Part shown: positions 1,837-40,976 of the stretch, in pieces
How positions within the stretch are numbered: the first letter of the stretch is position 1
Layout: every line of letters begins with the position of its first letter
DNA from: an uncultured Opitutia bacterium
GTDB taxonomy: Bacteria; Verrucomicrobiota; Verrucomicrobiia; Opitutales; Opitutaceae
Length of the DNA: 64,000 nt
Direction of reading: 5' to 3'
Assembly: GCA_903862955.1 (NCBI GenBank)
Contig: CAIPAH010000018.1
Coordinates: 1-64,000 of the forward strand
The notes under the pieces: generated by a model
Databases searched by the model: none
What the model saw: only the letters and a program-made list of their open reading frames with translations
Told to the model about the DNA's origin: nothing
Made by a program: the position numbers and the translations under genes

Positions 1837-3639
1837 CTAGCGCCCGCCGGTGAACGACACGCGCCAGATCGTGCCGTTGCCGTCCTCGGTCACGAGCAGC
1901 GCGCCGTCGTGGGCAACGGCCACGCCGACCGGACGCCCCCAGACGTGTCCTGCGTCCACCACGAAACCGGTCAGGAAGTCCTCGTAGCCGCCCACCGGCA
2001 CGCCGTGCTCGAGCCGCACGCGCACGACCTTGTAGCCGGTGCGGTTGCTGCGGTTCCAGGAACCGTGCAGCGCGGCAAAAATATTCCCGCGATACTCCGC
2101 CGGGAACGCCGCCGGCCCCGTCGCCGACGGGTAAAATGCCATCTGCAGCGACGCCGAGTGCGACTGGAGCAGCACATCCGGCATGATCGCCACGCCGGCC
2201 AAGTCGGGCCGCGCCCCCGCATGCCGCGGATCCTCGTGATTGCCCAAATAATACCACGGCCAGCCGTAAAATCCGCCTTCGCGCACCCGCGTGATGTAGT
2301 CGGGCACCAGGTCGTCGCCCAAGCCGTCACGTTCGTTGGTTGAGGTCCACAACTCCCCCGTCTCCGGGTCGACAGTCAGTCCGACGCCATTGCGAATCCC
2401 GGTCGCAAACGTCCGCAACGGCTCACGTCCCGTCGGATCCGTCACCAGGATGTCGGCGCGGTTCGTCTCGAACGCCCACGCTGCGCCGCGCCCGTGCGCC
2501 GCCTCCCACTCGCGGATTTCCTCGGGCGTCTTCCGCGGCAGACCTTCGGCGACGTTTGACGACGAGCCCACCGAGATAAACATCCGGCGCCCATCCAAGG
2601 AAAACGCCACGTCGCGCGTGCTGTGACCGCCGGTGCCCTGCGTGAGCCGCGGCACGATGACCTCGGCCGCGCCCCGCGCCTTGAGGTCGCCGCTCTGGTA
2701 GGGAAACCGCACCACGGCGTTGTTGTTGGCCACATAGACCCACTGCGGCCGGTCGCCCACCGGGTAAAACGCGATCCCGAACGGCCGGTCGAGCCCTTCC
2801 GCAAAAATCGCGATCGCGGACGGCGCGTCCGCCCCGTCGCTCGCGCGCAAAACCCGGATCCGGCCAGCGCTCGTCTCCGCGACAAAGATGTCGCCATTGG
2901 GCGCCACTCGCACGATGCGGGGATTCTTCAGCCCGCTCGCAAACCGCCGCACCGTGAAGCCCGCGGGCACCGCCAGCCGGCTGGTTTCGTTCGGACGCAC
3001 CACGCGCGGCCCGTTGCCCGCCGACGTCGTGGCGTAGGGCGGCGGCAAATGCGTCGTCTCAAAATAATGCCGCACGCCCGGCGCCGAGCGACGCCAGTCC
3101 TCCGGGTCCGCGTTTGAATTTCCCGGCGCCCGCGCTGACGCGACTTCGGCCGTTGCGCCCCGAGCCGGGGCCGCTCTGGTGGACAGGAACGTGATGACAT
3201 TCGCTCGGTCCGCCGCCTGCGGCACGATGCCTCCCATCGTCGTGCCCGGCACCATGCCAGTGGGATCAGCCAGATATTTTTCCAGCGTGGCGACATCCCA
3301 CGTGAGCTTAGAGTTGGCCAGGGCCTGGCTGTAACTGAACGAGCCGGACGCCGCCTTTCGCCCGATGACGCCACCCAAATCCGGCCCGCGCCCCGCCTCC
3401 GGTTGAACCCCGCCGATGGTTCCCGTCGAATGACACAACGCGCAGTTCTGCATGAAATAGGCCTGTCCGGCGGCGACGTCCCGCGGGCTCTCCGCCGCGC
3501 TGCGCCCCGCGCACGCCAAGCAGACACAAACAAACAACACACCCCGGCACAGCCGGCGAAAGCCCGCGGGCTTCACTTCGCGGCCGTTCCATCCGCGCGA
3601 TTCAATCCTCCAGTTCATGCGCCCTCCATTGACTCCCAT
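1837..3639 (-). CDS. Secreted cytochrome c / L-sorbosone dehydrogenase-like beta-propeller fusion
   Basis: This is a predicted periplasmic PQQ-type sugar dehydrogenase with its own haem. An N-terminal hydrophobic stretch (about residues 30-48) looks like a signal peptide. A mono-haem cytochrome c domain follows, with Cys66-Ala-Leu-Cys69-His70 and a likely axial Met135 in GTTMGG. From about residue 215 to the end the sequence fits the sorbosone/glucose dehydrogenase propeller, with NGDIFVAET, GRPVGVAVA and ALLVTEDGNGTIWRV. Such proteins oxidise sugars or polyols and pass electrons to the respiratory chain, and the fused haem would be the first acceptor. An alternative start lies at 3618 (MNWRIES). 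The gene converges on the unknown gene at 1290 and has no operon partner. The substrate is unknown. Confidence 0.82.
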   Translation of the reverse strand: MGVNGGRMNWRIESRGWNGREVKPAGFRRLCRGVLFVCVCLACAGRSAAESPRDVAAGQAYFMQNCALCHSTGTIGGVQPEAGRGPDLGGVIGRKAASGSFSYSQALANSKLTWDVATLEKYLADPTGMVPGTTMGGIVPQAADRANVITFLSTRAAPARGATAEVASARAPGNSNADPEDWRRSAPGVRHYFETTHLPPPYATTSAGNGPRVVRPNETSRLAVPAGFTVRRFASGLKNPRIVRVAPNGDIFVAETSAGRIRVLRASDGADAPSAIAIFAEGLDRPFGIAFYPVGDRPQWVYVANNNAVVRFPYQSGDLKARGAAEVIVPRLTQGTGGHSTRDVAFSLDGRRMFISVGSSSNVAEGLPRKTPEEIREWEAAHGRGAAWAFETNRADILVTDPTGREPLRTFATGIRNGVGLTVDPETGELWTSTNERDGLGDDLVPDYITRVREGGFYGWPWYYLGNHEDPRHAGARPDLAGVAIMPDVLLQSHSASLQMAFYPSATGPAAFPAEYRGNIFAALHGSWNRSNRTGYKVVRVRLEHGVPVGGYEDFLTGFVVDAGHVWGRPVGVAVAHDGALLVTEDGNGTIWRVSFTGGR

Positions 3640-3733: not shown

Positions 3734-3794
3734 TGTAGGAGCGGCTTTACGCCGCGATGCCCATAATCCTACGCGGGCTAAACCCGCTCCTACA
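3734..3794. repeat. REP-type inverted doublet
   Basis: Two 23-nt units, 3734-3756 and 3772-3794, are inverted relative to each other with four mismatches. Each starts from the outside with TGTAGGAGCGG and folds into its own short hairpin (GCGGC/GCCGC and GCGGG/CCCGC). This is the form of REP elements mobilised by RAYT (TnpA-REP) proteins in gammaproteobacteria. It lies in the 232-base gap between two divergent genes. Confidence 0.75.
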
Positions 3795-3871: not shown

Positions 3872-4822
3872 ATGTCCTCCGCCACCGCGCCTGCCCCGCG
3901 TTCCCGCACCAAGAGCGAATTTGTTGATTCCACGGATCTGCTGGGCGATCCCGTCGCGCTGCGGGCCCGGGCCCAGCAGGACGGCTACCTGTTTTTCCGG
4001 CAGCGGCTGCCCAAGGACGAAGTGCTCGCGATGCGCGCGGAGATGCTGGCCATCGTCGAGAAATACGGCTGGCGGCAGAAGGGCCAGGACGCCCTCGGCG
4101 GGCTGATCGATTACGATGCCATCAACAGCATCAGTGAGGAGCAGATGCACCGGACGGACGTGGGCGTCACCGCCGACGCGTATCACGACGTGCAGAAACT
4201 CGAGCGCTTTCACCGGCTGCCACACCACCCGCGTCTGCTGGAAATCTACCGCGCGCTCTTCGGCCGCGAGGTCCTCGTGCATCCGCGCCACATCGCGCGC
4301 ATGATCACGCCGCACACGTGCATGGTGCCCACGCCGCCGCACCAGGATTTTCCCTACATCCAAGGCTCGACGCAGACGTGGACCTGCTGGTTTCCCGTCG
4401 GCGACTGTGCCCGCTCCGAGGGCGGCCTCACCGTTCTGCGCGGCTCGCACGTCCACGGCTACCTGCCCGTCCAACCCGCCAAGGGCGCGGGCGGCTTCGC
4501 GGTTCCGCTCTGCCCCACCGAGACCGATTGGGTCGAGGGCGATTACCGGACCGGCGACGTCCTCACCTTCCCGAGCCACACGATTCACAAGGCGCTCCGC
4601 TCGCAGTTCAAGGACCGCATCCGCTTGTCGATGGACGTGCGCTACCAGGCCGCCGACGAACTCGTGGACCACAGCTCGCTCAACCCCCATTGCACGCTGA
4701 AGTGGGACGAAATCTACGCCAACTGGCAGTCCGACGAGCTGAAATACTACTGGAAGAAAATGCCCCTGAAGATGAGCCCGTGGGACGACGGCTATCTGAA
4801 AGCAGCGCGGCGGATCTGCTGA
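3872..4822 (+). CDS. Phytanoyl-CoA dioxygenase (PhyH) family protein
   Basis: This is a predicted Fe(II)/2-oxoglutarate-dependent oxygenase of the PhyH family, 316 residues, close to the usual family length. The iron-binding facial triad is visible as His157-x-Asp159 (PHQDFPY) with a distal His at about 236 (FPSHTIHK). An arginine-rich strand that would hold 2-oxoglutarate follows. EGGLTVLRGSH is typical of the family. The family hydroxylates many small molecules and the substrate here is open. The gene is monocistronic, 61 bases after the inverted repeat doublet and convergent with an esterase fusion gene. The ATG at 3872 precedes the conserved region by a short polar tail. Confidence 0.85.
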   Translation: MSSATAPAPRSRTKSEFVDSTDLLGDPVALRARAQQDGYLFFRQRLPKDEVLAMRAEMLAIVEKYGWRQKGQDALGGLIDYDAINSISEEQMHRTDVGVTADAYHDVQKLERFHRLPHHPRLLEIYRALFGREVLVHPRHIARMITPHTCMVPTPPHQDFPYIQGSTQTWTCWFPVGDCARSEGGLTVLRGSHVHGYLPVQPAKGAGGFAVPLCPTETDWVEGDYRTGDVLTFPSHTIHKALRSQFKDRIRLSMDVRYQAADELVDHSSLNPHCTLKWDEIYANWQSDELKYYWKKMPLKMSPWDDGYLKAARRIC

Positions 4823-11070: not shown

Positions 11071-11973
11071 ATGACTTCCTACCACCTCGACCACCTTCAA
11101 TACCTCGAAACTGAAGCGATCCACGTGATGCGCGAGGTGGCGGGCGAGTTCGAGCGGCCGGCCCTGCTGTTTTCCGGCGGCAAGGACTCGATCTGCCTCC
11201 TGCGGCTCGCGGAAAAGGCTTTTCGCCCGTCGGAACTGCCCCTGCCCTTGCTCAACGTGGACACCGGCCATCATTTCCCGGAGTTGAACACGTTCCGCGA
11301 CGCCCGCGCGAAGGAGCTGGGCGCCAAGCTGATCGTCCGCCGCGTCGAGGACGCCATCGCTTCCGGCATCGCCACGCCCGCGCCGGGCGAGGTCAGCCGC
11401 AACCGGCTGCAGATTCCCACGCTGCTCGCGGCGATCGAGGAGTTTCGCTTCGACTGCTGCATCGGCGGCGCGCGCCGCGACGAGGAAAAGGCCCGCGCCA
11501 AGGAGCGCTTCTTCAGCTTCCGCGACAGCTTCGGCCAGTGGGACCCGAAAAACCAGCGCCCCGAGATTTGGAACCTCTACAACGGCCGGCTGAACCCGGG
11601 CGAAAACATGCGGGCGTTCCCGCTCAGTAATTGGACCGAGCAGGACGTGTGGGAATACATCCGCCGCGAGGAACTCGCCGTCCCGAGTATCTATTTCAGC
11701 CACCGCCGCTCCTGCGTCCGCCGCCACGGCCAGTGGCTGCCGGTCAATGACATCGTCCCGCCCAAGCCGAAGGAGGAGGTCCGCGATCTCGTCGTGCGCG
11801 TGCGCACGATCGGTGACATCATCAGCACCGGCTTGGTCGAGTCGCCCGCCGAGACCGTGGATGACATCATCCTCGAGATCGCCGCCGCCCGCGTGACCGA
11901 GCGCGGCTCCCGCGCCGATGACAAGTCCTCCGAGGCTGCGATGGAGGACCGGAAGAAGGCCGGTTACTTCTAA
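11071..11973 (+). CDS. cysD: Sulfate adenylyltransferase subunit 2
   Basis: CysD is the catalytic half of ATP sulfurylase and forms APS from ATP and sulfate together with the GTPase CysN. The PP-loop SGGKDSICLLRL is present near residue 32. HHFPELNTFRD, GGARRDEEKARAKER, FPLSNWTEQDVWEYI and the C-terminal SEAAMEDRKKAGYF are all family hallmarks. Its 300 residues are the usual length. CysD is normally followed directly by cysN, but here a four-helix-bundle gene flanked by inverted repeats lies between them. The stop codon is four bases before the left arm of that repeat. Confidence 0.96.
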   Translation: MTSYHLDHLQYLETEAIHVMREVAGEFERPALLFSGGKDSICLLRLAEKAFRPSELPLPLLNVDTGHHFPELNTFRDARAKELGAKLIVRRVEDAIASGIATPAPGEVSRNRLQIPTLLAAIEEFRFDCCIGGARRDEEKARAKERFFSFRDSFGQWDPKNQRPEIWNLYNGRLNPGENMRAFPLSNWTEQDVWEYIRREELAVPSIYFSHRRSCVRRHGQWLPVNDIVPPKPKEEVRDLVVRVRTIGDIISTGLVESPAETVDDIILEIAAARVTERGSRADDKSSEAAMEDRKKAGYF

Positions 11974-11977
11974 CCGG

Positions 11978-12005
11978 CGGAGTTCGTAGATCGAAGATCG
12001 GGAAA
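11978..12005. repeat. Left arm of a 28-nt inverted repeat flanking the four-helix-bundle gene
   Basis: This segment is the reverse complement of 12491-12518 with only two mismatches in 28 positions. Both arms are built of a GATCTCCG-like word. The two arms enclose 485 bases that hold a hairpin, the four-helix-bundle gene and the cysN ATG. The left arm starts directly after the cysD stop. Confidence 0.8.
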
Positions 12006-12041
12006 AATCCCATGATTTCGCAATTTACAGAGACGACACGG

Positions 12042-12084
12042 CTGCCCGATGGCCTGCCGGGCTCGGCCCGGCAAGGCCGGGCAG
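12042..12084 (+). repeat. 43-nt GC-rich stem-loop upstream of the four-helix-bundle gene
   Basis: Nested pairings fold the whole segment. CTGCCCG (12042-12048) pairs with CGGGCAG (12078-12084), GGCC with GGCC inside it, and TGCCGGGC (12055-12062) with GCCCGGCA (12066-12073) over a TCG loop. It ends 11 bases before the chosen start of the next gene. Confidence 0.65.
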
Positions 12085-12095
12085 TGCTGACTCAC

Positions 12096-12467
12096 ATGCC
12101 CACCGCCACATCTGAGTTCGAGAAACTCGACGCCTGGAGAGTCTCGCGGGCCTTGACCAGTCGAGTGTATGCCCTCTGTCGCCGCGCTCCGCTCGCGCGG
12201 GACTTCGGGCTGTGCGATCAGCTGCGCCGGGCGGCGGTCTCGGTGATGAACAACATCGCCGAAGGCTGGGAAAGCCGTCACCCGGCCGAGAAAGTCTCCT
12301 TCTACAACTTCGCCCGTCGCTCCTGCGGCGAGGTCCGCTCGATGAGCTACGTCCTCCTCGACAGTCAATTTATCACTGACTTGGAGCAGCGCGAGCTTCG
12401 CGACCATTGCATCCGCTCCGGCATGTTGGTCAGTGGTCTGATCCGCTCCGTCCAATCCCGCAACTAA
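12096..12467 (+). CDS. Four-helix-bundle protein (23S rRNA intervening-sequence / S23 family)
   Basis: This small protein of about 123 residues belongs to the family first seen in intervening sequences of 23S rRNA genes. FEKLDAWRVSRALTSRVYAL opens helix 1, and FGLCDQLRRAAVSVMNNIAEGWES and YNFARRSCGEVRSMSYVLLDS are family signatures. The fold is an all-helical pentamer-forming bundle and its cellular role is unknown. I start at ATG 12096; an upstream ATG at 12012 would add residues coded by the stem-loop. The gene interrupts cysD-cysN and is bracketed by 28-nt inverted repeats, which suggests arrival as a unit. Confidence 0.9.
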   Translation: MPTATSEFEKLDAWRVSRALTSRVYALCRRAPLARDFGLCDQLRRAAVSVMNNIAEGWESRHPAEKVSFYNFARRSCGEVRSMSYVLLDSQFITDLEQRELRDHCIRSGMLVSGLIRSVQSRN

Positions 12468-12476
12468 TTCACTTTG

Positions 12477-13844
12477 ATGTCCGCCTCGCCTTTCCCGATC
12501 TCCGATCTCCGAACTCCGATCTCCGCGGCGCAAAGCGCGACGCTGCCCGTGGACATTCTGCGCTTCAACACCTGCGGCAGCGTCGATGACGGCAAGTCCA
12601 CGCTCATTGGACGGCTGCTCTACGATTCAAAGTCCCTGATGGAGGACCAGCTCGAGGCGCTCGAGCGTTCCGCCGACATCACCGGCGGCGGCCAGGTCAA
12701 CCTCGCCAATCTCACCGATGGCCTGCGCGCGGAACGGGAACAGGGCATCACGATCGACGTCGCCTACCGCTACTTCGCCACGCCGCGCCGCAAGTTCATC
12801 ATCGCCGACACTCCCGGCCACATCCAATACACGCGCAACATGGTCACCGGCGCGTCCGCCGCGAACCTCTCGATCGTGCTGGTGGACGCGCGCCAGGGCG
12901 TGATCGAGCAGAGCCGCCGCCACACCTGCCTCGCGTCGCTGCTGCGCATTCCCCACCTCGTCGTCGCCGTCAACAAGATGGACCTCGTCGGCTGGAGCGA
13001 GGAGCGCTTCAACGAAATCCGCGCCCAATTCGAGGAATTCCTGCCCCGGCTCGACATCAAGGACGTGAAGTTCATCCCGATCAGCGCGCTGCAGGGCGAC
13101 AACGTCGTCGACGCCTCCGCCCACACGCCGTGGTATGCCGGCCCCACGCTGTTGCACCACCTCGAGACCGTGCACATCGGCAGCGACTGGAACTTGAATG
13201 GCTTCCGCCTGCCGGTGCAGTGGGTCAACCGCCCGAACAATCCCACCGACCCGAAACTCCACGACTTCCGCGGCTTCAGCGGCCAGATTGCCGGGGGCAT
13301 TGTTCGCCAGGGGCAGAAGGTCATGGTTCTCCCGGGCGGCCAGATCACCACCGTGAAGGAAATCTGGACCTACGACGGCCCCGTCGCCGAGGCGTTCTGC
13401 CCGCAATCCGTCACGCTCCAGCTGGACAGCGACGTCGACGTGAGCCGCGGCAACATGATCATCGGGCAGAGCCACCTGCCGGGCTCCAGCAGCGAGCTTC
13501 TCGCCAACGTCTGCTGGATGCACCAGAAGCCGCTCACGCCGGGGAAAAAATACTGGCTGAAGCACACCACCAACAGCGTCCAGGCCGCCGTCATCGCCAT
13601 CAATCACCGCCTCGACATCAGCACGCTCGAGCCCCAACCCACGCCGCCCGAGCTTGCGCTCAACGACATCGGCGAGATCCGGCTCCGCACTGCCTCGCCG
13701 CTCTTCTTTGACGGCTACGAAACCAACCGCCTCACCGGCTCCTTTATCCTCATCGAGCAGGGCACGCACGCCACCGTCGCCGCCGGCATGTTGCTGCCAC
13801 CGCGCGAGGTCGTGCGCGCGGATGCCGACGACTTTGTGATCTGA
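12477..13844 (+). CDS. cysN: Sulfate adenylyltransferase subunit 1 (GTPase)
   Basis: CysN is the GTPase that drives APS formation by CysD. It has the translation-factor-like GTPase motifs G1 GSVDDGKST (residues 34-42), G3 DTPGH and G4 NKMD, then the EF-Tu-like domains II and III. It has no fused APS kinase domain. From ATG 12477 the first 20 or so residues (PISDLRTPIS region) are coded by the right arm of the inverted repeat at 12491-12518 and have no family counterpart. An in-frame GTG at 12549, just before DILRFNTCGSV, would give a conventional N-terminus. Confidence 0.95.
   Translation: MSASPFPISDLRTPISAAQSATLPVDILRFNTCGSVDDGKSTLIGRLLYDSKSLMEDQLEALERSADITGGGQVNLANLTDGLRAEREQGITIDVAYRYFATPRRKFIIADTPGHIQYTRNMVTGASAANLSIVLVDARQGVIEQSRRHTCLASLLRIPHLVVAVNKMDLVGWSEERFNEIRAQFEEFLPRLDIKDVKFIPISALQGDNVVDASAHTPWYAGPTLLHHLETVHIGSDWNLNGFRLPVQWVNRPNNPTDPKLHDFRGFSGQIAGGIVRQGQKVMVLPGGQITTVKEIWTYDGPVAEAFCPQSVTLQLDSDVDVSRGNMIIGQSHLPGSSSELLANVCWMHQKPLTPGKKYWLKHTTNSVQAAVIAINHRLDISTLEPQPTPPELALNDIGEIRLRTASPLFFDGYETNRLTGSFILIEQGTHATVAAGMLLPPREVVRADADDFVI
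12491..12518. repeat. Right arm of the 28-nt inverted repeat flanking the four-helix-bundle gene
   Basis: This is the partner of 11978-12005 (26 of 28 positions complementary). The word continues for about 10 more bases into cysN. If cysN starts at 12477, the arm is translated as part of its N-terminus. Confidence 0.8.
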
Positions 13845-18871: not shown

Positions 18872-18998
18872 AATTCTTAACCGCGAATGGACGCCAATGA
18901 ACGCGAATTCCGTCAGAAAGACAAACGAGCCGTCACATCTTGGCCGTGGATGTTGGGTGCTGCTCCTCCAGATTCGCGTCCATTCGCGGTAAAATTCT
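18872..18998. repeat. Word-type palindrome with CGCGAATGGACGC arms
   Basis: The left arm (18872-18909) and the right arm (18971-18998) share the inverted word ACCGCGAATGGACGC. It fills the gap between two minus-strand genes and its right edge touches the stop codon of the upstream one. The same word family recurs at 24427-24504 and 36757-36814. Confidence 0.75.
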
Positions 18999-24354: not shown

Positions 24355-24426
24355 GGAAAAATCCCCACCATGAAGCACGTCCGTCCAGCCAAAGACTAGC
24401 CCGAAAGTGAGCCTTCCAATACTCCG

Positions 24427-24504
24427 CCCGCGAATGACGCGAAATTGCGCGAATCTGGAAGATCCCCGGGTTGGGGATTTGCGTCGATTCGTGTCATTCG
24501 CGGG
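24427..24504. repeat. Word-type palindrome that supplies the 3' end of the rlmM-like gene
   Basis: The left arm (24427-24455) and right arm (24486-24504) share the inverted CCCGCGAATGACGCGAA word. A nested hairpin (ATCCCC/GGGGAT, 24462-24479) fills the loop. The right arm overlaps the last two sense codons and the stop of the rlmM-like gene. Confidence 0.75.
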
Positions 24505-25525
24505 CGACCTCCCCCACCACCGTAAATTCCTCGCGGTCGTGGTAAAGGTGCCGCACGCGAAAGCCCGGCGCATGCCGCGCGAATGGCGATTCCGGCGAAC
24601 GCAGTTCCGCGAGCAAGGCGATGGGGTCCACGCGGCCAAACTTCAGGTTGACCACGAACCGCCGGCACCAGCCCTGGGCCAGCCACGGCGTCACCAGCTG
24701 CTGCAACACGTGATGCGGTTCCTCCACCAAGTCGCAGAACAGCCAGTCAAAACCACCTGAGGAGGTTTTGCCCTCCGAAGCCTCGGCGAAGGAGGGCGCG
24801 AATCTGAACGCATCCTCCAACCGGTGCTCGATCAGCGGGTGGTTCAGCGCGCCGCCCTTGAGCGGGCCATTGTCGACCGCCACGACGCGCGCGCCCCGCT
24901 TGGCCGCGCTGTAGCTCCATCCACCGGGCGCCGCGCCGAGATCGCACACCGTCTCGCTCTCGGCCGGCTCATGGCCGAGCACGATGTAGGCTTCCTCCAC
25001 TTTCAAGTAACTCCGCGATGGCGCGAGGTCGTCGTCGGCCATGCGCCGCTGGCCATGCACGAACGCCTCCCGCGCCACCAGGATCCGGCCGAAGTCGGTG
25101 AAATAAACGAACAGCCCCCGCGCCGGCCCGGCGCCGCGCGGCACGTCCCGCATCGCCAGTTTCGCCACGCGCGACAGCTTCTTCTTGAGCAGCTCCCCGC
25201 ACGCCGACTCCACCGCCGAGATCCGGCGGCCCAGCCCGGTGATTTCCTGCGGCCCCAGCCACACGCAGGGCCAGTCCGCGTCCACGCGTTCGCCCTTCAG
25301 ACTCGTGAAGAAGAACTCCGCCACCCGCGTCGCGAGCGCGTTGACCGACTCGCCCCGCACCTCGACGGGCGCCCTCAGCTCCAACCAGGGAAACGCCAGG
25401 GTCTCATTGAACGCCGCGCCCTCCGTTCGCACCCAACCCGGTCCGGACTCCAGCGCCGCCGCGCCCGTGGCGGCCAGCTCGCGCCCGAGCAGTGATTCAA
25501 ATCCGGCCTGACACGTCAGCAACAT
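24494..25525 (-). CDS. rlmM: FtsJ-like RNA methyltransferase, RlmM type
   Basis: This SAM-dependent 2'-O-methyltransferase resembles RlmM, which modifies C2498 of 23S rRNA. It has a THUMP-like N-terminal half and a Rossmann domain with the SAM motif VCDLGAAPGGWSY. Catalytic-tetrad candidates lie in FDWLFCDLVEEP and VVNLKFGR. Residues 245-257 (SFAEASEGK and neighbours) are coded by a palindromic segment (24761-24798) that looks like an in-frame repeat insertion. The last codons come from another palindrome. ATG 25525 (MLLTCQAGFE) is the family-like start. Confidence 0.87.
   Translation of the reverse strand: MLLTCQAGFESLLGRELAATGAAALESGPGWVRTEGAAFNETLAFPWLELRAPVEVRGESVNALATRVAEFFFTSLKGERVDADWPCVWLGPQEITGLGRRISAVESACGELLKKKLSRVAKLAMRDVPRGAGPARGLFVYFTDFGRILVAREAFVHGQRRMADDDLAPSRSYLKVEEAYIVLGHEPAESETVCDLGAAPGGWSYSAAKRGARVVAVDNGPLKGGALNHPLIEHRLEDAFRFAPSFAEASEGKTSSGGFDWLFCDLVEEPHHVLQQLVTPWLAQGWCRRFVVNLKFGRVDPIALLAELRSPESPFARHAPGFRVRHLYHDREEFTVVGEVARE
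24761..24798. repeat. Palindromic insertion within the rlmM-like coding sequence
   Basis: CCTCC (24771-24775) and GGAGG (24791-24795) bracket a GAAGCCTCGGCGAA core. The stretch is read in frame as SFAEASEGK. It resembles palindromic elements inserted into coding sequences rather than conserved enzyme sequence. Confidence 0.5.
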
Positions 25526-31050: not shown

Positions 31051-31165
31051 TTGGCCGCGAAAAGGCACAAGGGCTTGGAGGCTGCGCAAAAGTCTCCATT
31101 GCGCCTATAGGCGCGCGGGAGATTTGGGCCGAAGCCCCGGAGCCCTTGTGCCTTATCGTGGCCAA
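31051..31165. repeat. Composite palindrome, copy 1 (25-nt arms plus TATA-centred core)
   Basis: The outer arms 31051-31075 and 31141-31165 match at 23 of 25 positions (TTGGCC, CGAAAAGGCAC words). The core 31093-31122 contains the perfect palindrome GCGCCTATAGGCGC (31101-31114) inside TCTCC/GGAGA. A second copy with the same core and similar arms lies at 40852-40976. Confidence 0.9.
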
Positions 31166-33852: not shown

Positions 33853-33936
33853 TTAACCACAAAGGGCACGAAGCACACAAAGGAAGACGAAAACCGAGGA
33901 TTGAACCTTCGTGTGCTTCGTGCCCTTCGTGGTTAA
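33853..33936. repeat. Near-perfect 26-nt inverted repeat with TTAACCAC arms
   Basis: The arms 33853-33878 and 33911-33936 differ at one of 26 positions. The words are TTAACCAC, AAAGGGCACGAAG and CACAC. It begins two bases after the NamZ stop and ends 15 bases before the next ATG. It is related in word content to 35525-35591 and to the arms at 31051 and 40852. Confidence 0.9.
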
Positions 33937-37998: not shown

Positions 37999-38084
37999 TT
38001 TTAGCCGGAAGCCATGAAACTAGGAAGCGGGCGACCGAACCAATCCGTGGTTCGTATTCCTGGTTTCCTGGCTTCCGGCTAAAA
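37999..38084. repeat. 28-nt inverted repeat with nested hairpin between convergent genes
   Basis: The arms 37999-38026 and 38057-38084 match at 26 of 28 positions (TTTTAGCCGGAAGCC words). Inside the loop CGAACCA (38036-38042) pairs perfectly with TGGTTCG (38048-38054). It exactly fills the space between the convergent oxidoreductase and msrB genes. Confidence 0.9.
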
Positions 38085-40851: not shown

Positions 40852-40976
40852 GAGGATGGCCACGAAAAGGCACGAGGGGCCTCAGGGCTGCGGCGGCGTC
40901 TCCATCGCGCCTATAGGCGCGCGGGAGAGTCGAGTCGGAGCCAAGGAAATTCTTGTGCCTCTTCGTGGCCATCCTC
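40852..40976. repeat. Composite palindrome, copy 2
   Basis: The arms 40852-40876 and 40952-40976 match at 23 of 25 positions. The core 40899-40928 is identical to that of copy 1 at 31093-31122 except at one position, including the perfect GCGCCTATAGGCGC (40907-40920). It lies in the 282-base divergent gap before the polysaccharide locus. Confidence 0.9.

Follow-up and report, generated by a model that had tools for sequence, protein, structure and literature searches.

The window analysed here is a stretch of 64,000 nucleotides (nt) on contig CAIPAH010000018.1 from an uncultured Opitutia bacterium, and the element in question is a small gene enclosed by inverted repeats between cysD and cysN. 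The upstream host gene cysD occupies 11071–11973 on the plus strand and ends with a stop codon 4 nt 5' of the left arm (11978–12005, without strand). A GC-rich hairpin is predicted on the plus strand between the left arm and the enclosed gene (~12042–12084), followed by the IVP/S23 four-helix-bundle gene itself (12096–12467, plus strand, 123 amino acids). The downstream host gene cysN (12477–13844, plus strand) starts with an ATG at 12477, between the IVP stop codon and the right arm (12491–12525, without strand), so the right arm lies within the cysN reading frame and encodes the N-terminus of CysN. Both neighbours were identified by profile searches, CysD with NF003587 (424 bits against a cut-off of 195) and CysN with TIGR02034 (550 bits against a cut-off of 336), which bears out the location given in the initial annotation of this DNA. 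A longer IVP frame opens at 12012; the ATG at 12096 is the more likely start, because by eye the copies in the relatives G003, G005, and G008 lack the hairpin stretch and start near the conserved domain.

The initial annotation had described 28-nt arms at 11978–12005 and 12491–12518 that are reverse complements at 26 positions and enclose a stem-loop and an S23/IVP gene. These coordinates and the complementarity (93%, with the arms 485 nt apart) were confirmed, and the right arm, which pairs with the left arm across 12491–12518, was found to extend further, to 12525. We scanned the window for arm complementarity with 300- and 250-nt flanks around a 300-nt gap. The unit scored 46, the highest of 421 positions, against a median of 20, a 99th percentile of 30, and a score of 34 at the next non-overlapping position. 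Both arms are tandem heptads, with a self-match at lag 7 of 0.67 for the left and 0.81 for the right arm. In the left arm, CGN cores recur four times at intervals of 7 nt (11978, 11985, 11992, and 11999). On the minus strand the right arm reads CGG-agat-CGG-agtt-CGG-agat-CGG-agat-CGG across 12495–12525, with five CGG cores exactly 7 nt apart (12523, 12516, 12509, 12502, and 12495). The RNA of the element is predicted to fold with its two arms paired (z −4.6).

The enclosed open reading frame (ORF) matches PF05635 (97.2 bits, curated cut-off 33.8) and TIGR02436 (91.4 bits, curated cut-off 24). PF05635 is its only Pfam match at E 0.001, and no transposase was found inside the unit. The structural model of the protein (pLDDT 93.3) aligns with chains of the solved relatives 2gsc and 2rld at TM scores of 0.75–0.84, indicating a four-helix bundle. 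It also aligns with the Avd chains of 4dwl (TM 0.76–0.77, E ~0.04), with weaker statistics than for 2gsc and 2rld. Both solved relatives contain five chains, and a passage in PMC4990558 terms the S23p of X. campestris a homopentamer and a toroid. The IVP protein is thus probably ring-forming and five-membered.

The initial annotation had suggested checking other four-helix-bundle genes for flanking arms. All three PF05635 genes of this genome have inverted arms, each with a different arm word; the locus L001, one of the two outside cysD-cysN, has the weakest (83%). Across 38 genomes (this one and 37 relatives, mostly draft genomes, in which repeat counts may suffer from assembly), PF05635 matches occur in 28 genomes at 139 places. 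We compared upstream and downstream flanks at 97 Opitutales loci, roughly the better-scoring part of the 139; 3 at contig ends were dropped, leaving 94. The median complementarity score was 35, compared with 18 for 8742 mismatched pairings, and strong arms (score at least 28) were present at 67 of the 94 loci versus 2.6% of the mismatched pairs. Control windows from cysN loci (n = 156) gave a median of 19 and a maximum of 28. A second set, the best 80 of 585 confirmed loci from other phyla (among them one verrucomicrobial Cerasicoccus and one Akkermansia), reached 28 or more at 62 loci, against 5.5% of mismatched pairs. The unit of gene plus arms thus recurs in many bacterial phyla and seems to be a mobile element of a type that is little known. 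An Rfam search of 20 of these 80 loci gave no rRNA. At one locus, L176 in a KSB1 genome, two Acido-Lenti-1 RNA matches (3474–3519 and 4047–4092) lie ~0.7 and 1.2 kb from the IVP gene.

The heptad structure is general as well. In the arms of the 67 Opitutales loci, self-match at lags 7, 14, and 21 was 0.49, 0.46, and 0.41 against a background of ~0.27, and lag 7 was the best lag at 53 loci. In the other-phyla set, 32 of the 62 loci labelled for spacing have 7-nt and 30 have 8-nt units. The arm words vary between loci and agree within one locus, with core words as diverse as CGG, AAT, ATT, and GAA. The left arm was also considered as a Shine-Dalgarno repeat and rejected, on argument rather than statistics: the diversity of core words is too great for this, and it would not account for the right arm. 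Unit spacing tracks the IVP protein tree, with 14 changes over 122 loci compared with a mean of 32.6 and a minimum of 25 after shuffling; when labels were shuffled within the other-phyla set only, no shuffle matched the observed fit. An array-length estimate based on lags overshoots by chance extension and was dropped in favour of unit counts, which choose the best register for each arm. With a 2-nt exact core, five was the commonest count at either spacing: 83 of 168 arms with 7-nt units had it, as did 33 of 76 with 8-nt units, whereas none of the shuffled arms reached five units at 7-nt spacing and one did at 8-nt spacing. Allowing one mismatch in a 3-nt core gave five units in 77/168 and 31/76 arms (shuffled, 6/168 and 3/76). 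The paired arm has a median of 40.5 nt at 8-nt spacing and 31.75 nt at 7-nt spacing, which suggests that arms vary more in length than in unit number.

The arms go together with the gene that they flank. Between loci at different sites, sharing of arm words rises from 0.07 to 0.35 with IVP similarity (Mantel rho 0.17, p ≤ 0.0005). In 13 site clusters comprising 39 loci, which are not independent within a site, the best IVP match lies in the same cluster for 30 loci, often in another species or genus and with differing words. The two arms of a locus tend towards concerted evolution. Of 21 same-site pairs, 16 show arms that resemble each other more within a locus than the same arm does between species (means 0.55 versus 0.40), namely 8 of the 10 pairs at cysD-cysN and 8 of the 11 elsewhere. 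One site holds two IVP lineages with two different words (L014/L113 and L152/L157).

The cassettes also have a polarity, here judged with a simple, approximate gene caller; gene names other than cysD, cysN, IVP, and GxxExxY were assigned by eye. The upstream neighbour is co-oriented at 54 of the 58 called Opitutales loci (67 armed, 9 uncalled) and likewise at 54 of 58 in other phyla (62 armed, 4 uncalled), compared with 162 of 215 other adjacent gene pairs in the other-phyla loci. The left arm starts at most 20 nt from the upstream stop codon in 44/54 (Opitutales) and 41/54 (other phyla) co-oriented cases. Because the cassette lies close to the stop of a co-oriented gene, its expression is probably driven by the host operon. 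The heptads, the five units, the polarity, and the generality across phyla were all absent from the initial annotation.

That annotation had proposed that the unit was inserted between cysD and cysN, and had called for a search for empty sites in relatives. Our sample of the genus comprises 12 genomes, of which 11 have a cysN match and were counted. The junction is filled in 6 (G000, which is this genome, G003, G004, G005, G006, and G008; the contig of G006 begins inside the IVP gene), empty in 2 (G002 and G011), and reduced to scraps in 3 (G007, G009, and G010). In a quick cysN tree the empty genomes are nested among the filled ones, with good support for G002 and weak support (0.43) for G011, making loss or re-gain likely. 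Cassettes formed by another small gene, GxxExxY (TIGR04256), appear at these junctions too. For the family we took the 30 best-scoring CysN loci and identified cysD in 27. In 21 of these nothing but a gap, 156 nt at most, lies between the two genes; an IVP gene lies there in 2 (G043, with an arm score of only 24, and G075, with 45), a GxxExxY cassette in 2, and a gene-less heptad palindrome of IVP type in 2 (G045 and G047). At rbsA-rbsC, 11 genus genomes were readable (G003, with a weak match only, was left out). The IVP cassette occurs only in G000, where arm sequence replaces the last codons of rbsA, and is absent from the other 10; in 9 of the 11 the two genes lie within about a dozen nt, and G007 has a gene-less palindrome of GxxExxY type. 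The insertion thus holds up: the unit is not at its site in all relatives, and the other copies of the family in this genome do not lack inverted repeats.

Copies at different sites within one genome were found in G031. Two of them (L004 and L031) share 95% identity, confined to the element, and a third, partly deleted copy (L145) is 92% identical over 216 nt; the flanks of all three are unrelated, and their left arms count 8, 4, and 2 units, respectively. Two more IVP copies of G031 (L124 and L125) share 98.7% identity over 373 nt; as each of them stops at the end of a contig, they may be an assembly duplicate. In this genome, L001 (1501–1815) lies at an rfbA-rfbB-like junction and its IVP gene contains an in-frame TAG. 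At the same junction relatives have IVP cassettes with other words, and in other species IVP genes (L005, L006, L007, L015, and L132) lie at a second, neighbouring junction, apparently of the same rfb operon, which seems to be a repeated target of IVP cassettes.

GxxExxY genes occur in 30 of the 38 genomes, with three in this one. Inverted arms scoring at least 30, the 95th percentile of 870 mismatched pairs, flank 23 of 30 loci; the mismatched scores are higher here because arm words are common to different loci. In 22 of the 24 loci scoring at least 28 the arms match themselves best at a lag of 8, 9, or 10, with no 7-nt period, and the upstream neighbour has the same orientation in 19 of 21 called cases. 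These data bear on the gene-less palindromes of the window, which the initial annotation had taken for possible non-autonomous forms of the cysD-cysN element. That view was only partly right: it is correct in kind but holds mainly for this second class, and most of the palindromes are not empty forms of the cysD-cysN element. The palindrome at 24425–24506 nearly matches the arms of the GxxExxY gene L106 of this genome (46 versus 19 for the best IVP arm), and that at 18877–18993 is also clearly of GxxExxY type (27 versus 16 for IVP arms). The palindrome at 33853–33936 leans slightly towards GxxExxY by score (33 versus 30) and more strongly by its 9-nt period. The one at 37999–38084 has a 7–8-nt period, has L121/L130 as its nearest IVP arms, and is the best candidate in the window for a gene-less element of IVP type. 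Other palindromes were noted in passing: those at 31051–31165 and 40852–40976 have the inner stretch GCGCCTATAGGCGCGCGGGAGA in common and form a dispersed repeat family, and a short palindrome at 3734–3794, TGTAGGAGCGG...CCGCTCCTACA, resembles repetitive extragenic palindromic (REP) elements.

The anatomy, the recurrence, the presence and absence, the concerted arms, and the polarity are read from sequence. We propose, with a probability of roughly two in three, that the unit belongs with the intervening sequences (IVSs) of 23S rRNA, a cassette-type kind of mobile element, and is inserted here into a protein-coding operon, with arms that are read by the IVP ring. Judging from the two solved relatives, the protein would assemble as a five-membered ring, and each ring would bind one arm, one subunit per unit, thereby reading the number and spacing of units. 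With one ring per arm, the ends of the element would be marked or paired, and movement could then rely on host replication or repair acting on those ends. Such a route is the most likely one given that the genus has no RVT_1 match and that some IVP-bearing genomes have no Y1 transposase match. PF01797 had no match at E 1e-5 in G001, G008, G011, and G020, which carry 3, 11, 2, and 7 IVP matches; this genome has one PF01797 match. A Y1/RAYT transposase of REP type is thus not consistently present in IVP-bearing genomes.

Several observations weigh against this proposal. To our knowledge, no experiment has shown an IVP protein binding any nucleic acid or moving anything. Strong arms are missing at 27 of 94 Opitutales and 18 of 80 other-phyla loci. 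Five units were not counted in about half of the arms, and only four in the left arm of the window; with a 3-nt exact core, five units were found in only 52/168 and 14/76 arms, and the mode at 8-nt spacing was three. The link between spacing and protein tree is weak within the Opitutales, where 3.6% of shuffles confined to that set match the tree fit, and 10 of the 21 pairs behind the concerted evolution of arms come from the single cysD-cysN site. No target-site duplication was seen by eye at rbsA-rbsC, where the relatives are 16–24% diverged at rbs, or at the G031 copies. For many cassettes the pattern among species or genera resembles vertical inheritance at a single site, so movement would be rare or partly ancient.

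The main rival places the function in RNA: the arms would pair in the polycistronic mRNA and RNase III would cut the stem, separating and regulating the cysD and cysN messages, with IVP incidental or RNA-binding. The predicted pairing of the arms, which 23S IVSs show as well, agrees with this, as do the mostly sense orientation of cassettes within gene pairs and the excision of 23S IVSs by RNase III described in a passage of PMC4990558. A sense RNA stem kept by selection would predict more G.U than A.C mismatches. The counts were 46 versus 75 in Opitutales, 67 versus 70 in other phyla, and 16 versus 33 for GxxExxY, an outcome that we also weigh against our own proposal and that leaves the sense-RNA stem unsupported as the conserved object. 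A stem alone also needs neither the 7- or 8-nt period, nor the usual five units, nor spacing that follows the tree. With mismatch statistics showing no sign of a kept sense stem, recognition by a pentamer is favoured, and we regard RNase III processing as unlikely while still the leading competitor.

We consider it quite improbable that the cassette is instead kept for its benefit to the host, with IVP binding repeats near its own or the downstream start and controlling translation in the manner of TRAP. The arms do lie near stop and start codons, and some sites are kept across genera. The neighbouring genes, on the other hand, look functionally unrelated (cysDN by profile; rbs, rfb, nuo, pheST, and his by eye), the cassette is often missing or decayed (in 5 of 11 genomes at cysDN), and the recognised strand would be present in RNA on only one arm.

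About as improbable is a purely mechanical origin, in which slippage makes heptad arrays and template switching mirrors them while the protein is uninvolved. The differing unit numbers of the similar G031 copies (8, 4, and 2 on the left) and the homogenisation within a locus would be expected of such by-products, whereas the flanking of IVP genes by arrays in many phyla, the tracking of IVP phylogeny by spacing, and the different architecture of GxxExxY arms would go unexplained. An Avd-like retroelement dependent on reverse transcriptase is very improbable: the fold matches Avd and the ribonucleoprotein of diversity-generating retroelements (E ~0.04), and Avd and PF05635 are discussed as homologous in a passage of PMC10053308, but a search for RVT_1 at E 1e-5 came up empty in all 12 genus genomes and in G031, where closely similar copies nonetheless occupy several sites, which disfavours such dependence for the genus.

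A wider form of our proposal, that ring-read cassettes are a general class, is more tentative, and on balance we would not yet rely on it. Mobile cassettes free of transposase and reverse transcriptase might be spread over many phyla, with a pentameric ring knowing its own ends by a code of count and spacing, perhaps with five as the commonest number of cores, a distance of 7 or 8 nt between them, and one core to each subunit, while the core word drifts. The 23S IVSs and the heptamers of Geobacter and Xanthomonas would then be special cases, and the GxxExxY cassettes a parallel class with an arm code of their own. If this is true, 23S IVSs and heptamer repeats that others read as regulator sites or G-quadruplexes have a common origin. 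The data also suggest that two different small genes, IVP and GxxExxY, travel through operon junctions in the same kind of armed cassette. The S23/IVP family has had a solved structure since 2006 and, as stated in a passage of PMC4990558, no known function; arms built of repeat units, five more often than any other number and spaced in a way that follows the protein, offer it a concrete and testable ligand.

In the titles, abstracts, and passages of open-licence PMC papers, no paper linked S23/IVP or GxxExxY genes generally to heptad or inverted arms; the anatomy of 23S IVSs is known, and the general link of S23/IVP genes to such arms is apparently new. A figure of a CRISPR-association survey names the 23S rRNA IVP (PMC10910872); our guess is that heptad arrays mistaken for CRISPR arrays lie behind this. 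Tandem heptads resembling gene-less arms have been described at the class 3 sites of Geobacter, with the published heptad MTYCTGA, where 15 of 16 are five tandem heptads (PMC2700814), in two Xanthomonas genomes with 70 and 75 inverted pairs of GGGAATC (PMC4692102), and as TAACTGA repeats (PMC4679880). The Geobacter and Xanthomonas heptads are often paired, as IVP arms are (PMC2700814, PMC4692102). The passages concerned read these heptamers as regulator sites, G-quadruplex formers, or translational signals and make no link to S23/IVP.

The Avd protein of diversity-generating retroelements (4dwl, 8ub7) has the four-helix fold in common with IVP, with the difference that the genus has no RVT_1 match. 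The GxxExxY cassettes likewise consist of one small gene between inverted arms near co-oriented stops, also at cysD-cysN; they differ in the protein family and in arms of about three words with an 8–10-nt period. TRAP is a ring protein that reads regularly spaced RNA triplets. The logic proposed for IVP is alike, a ring that would read triplet cores at fixed spacing, one per subunit, but the IVP fold is unrelated, the ring would have five rather than eleven subunits, and inverted copies of the array lie at both ends. Also among the closest known systems is the 23S rRNA IVS with an S23p ORF in C. burnetii and Leptospira, likewise small, with terminal inverted repeats and a sense S23/IVP gene (passages of PMC4990558). 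In C. burnetii, according to the same paper, the terminal inverted repeats of the IVS are 28 bp long, its S23p ORF is in sense, and heptameric repeats, variable in number, lie upstream of the ORF; the cysD-cysN unit is likewise heptad. IVP ORFs are also reported within 16S and 23S insertions of candidate phyla radiation (CPR) bacteria in a passage of PMC11270868. The cysD-cysN element does not lie in a 23S rRNA, and a search of the window against Rfam at E 0.1 had no hits. Unlike the 23S IVSs, units of its type sit between protein-coding genes at many sites, with words that differ from site to site.

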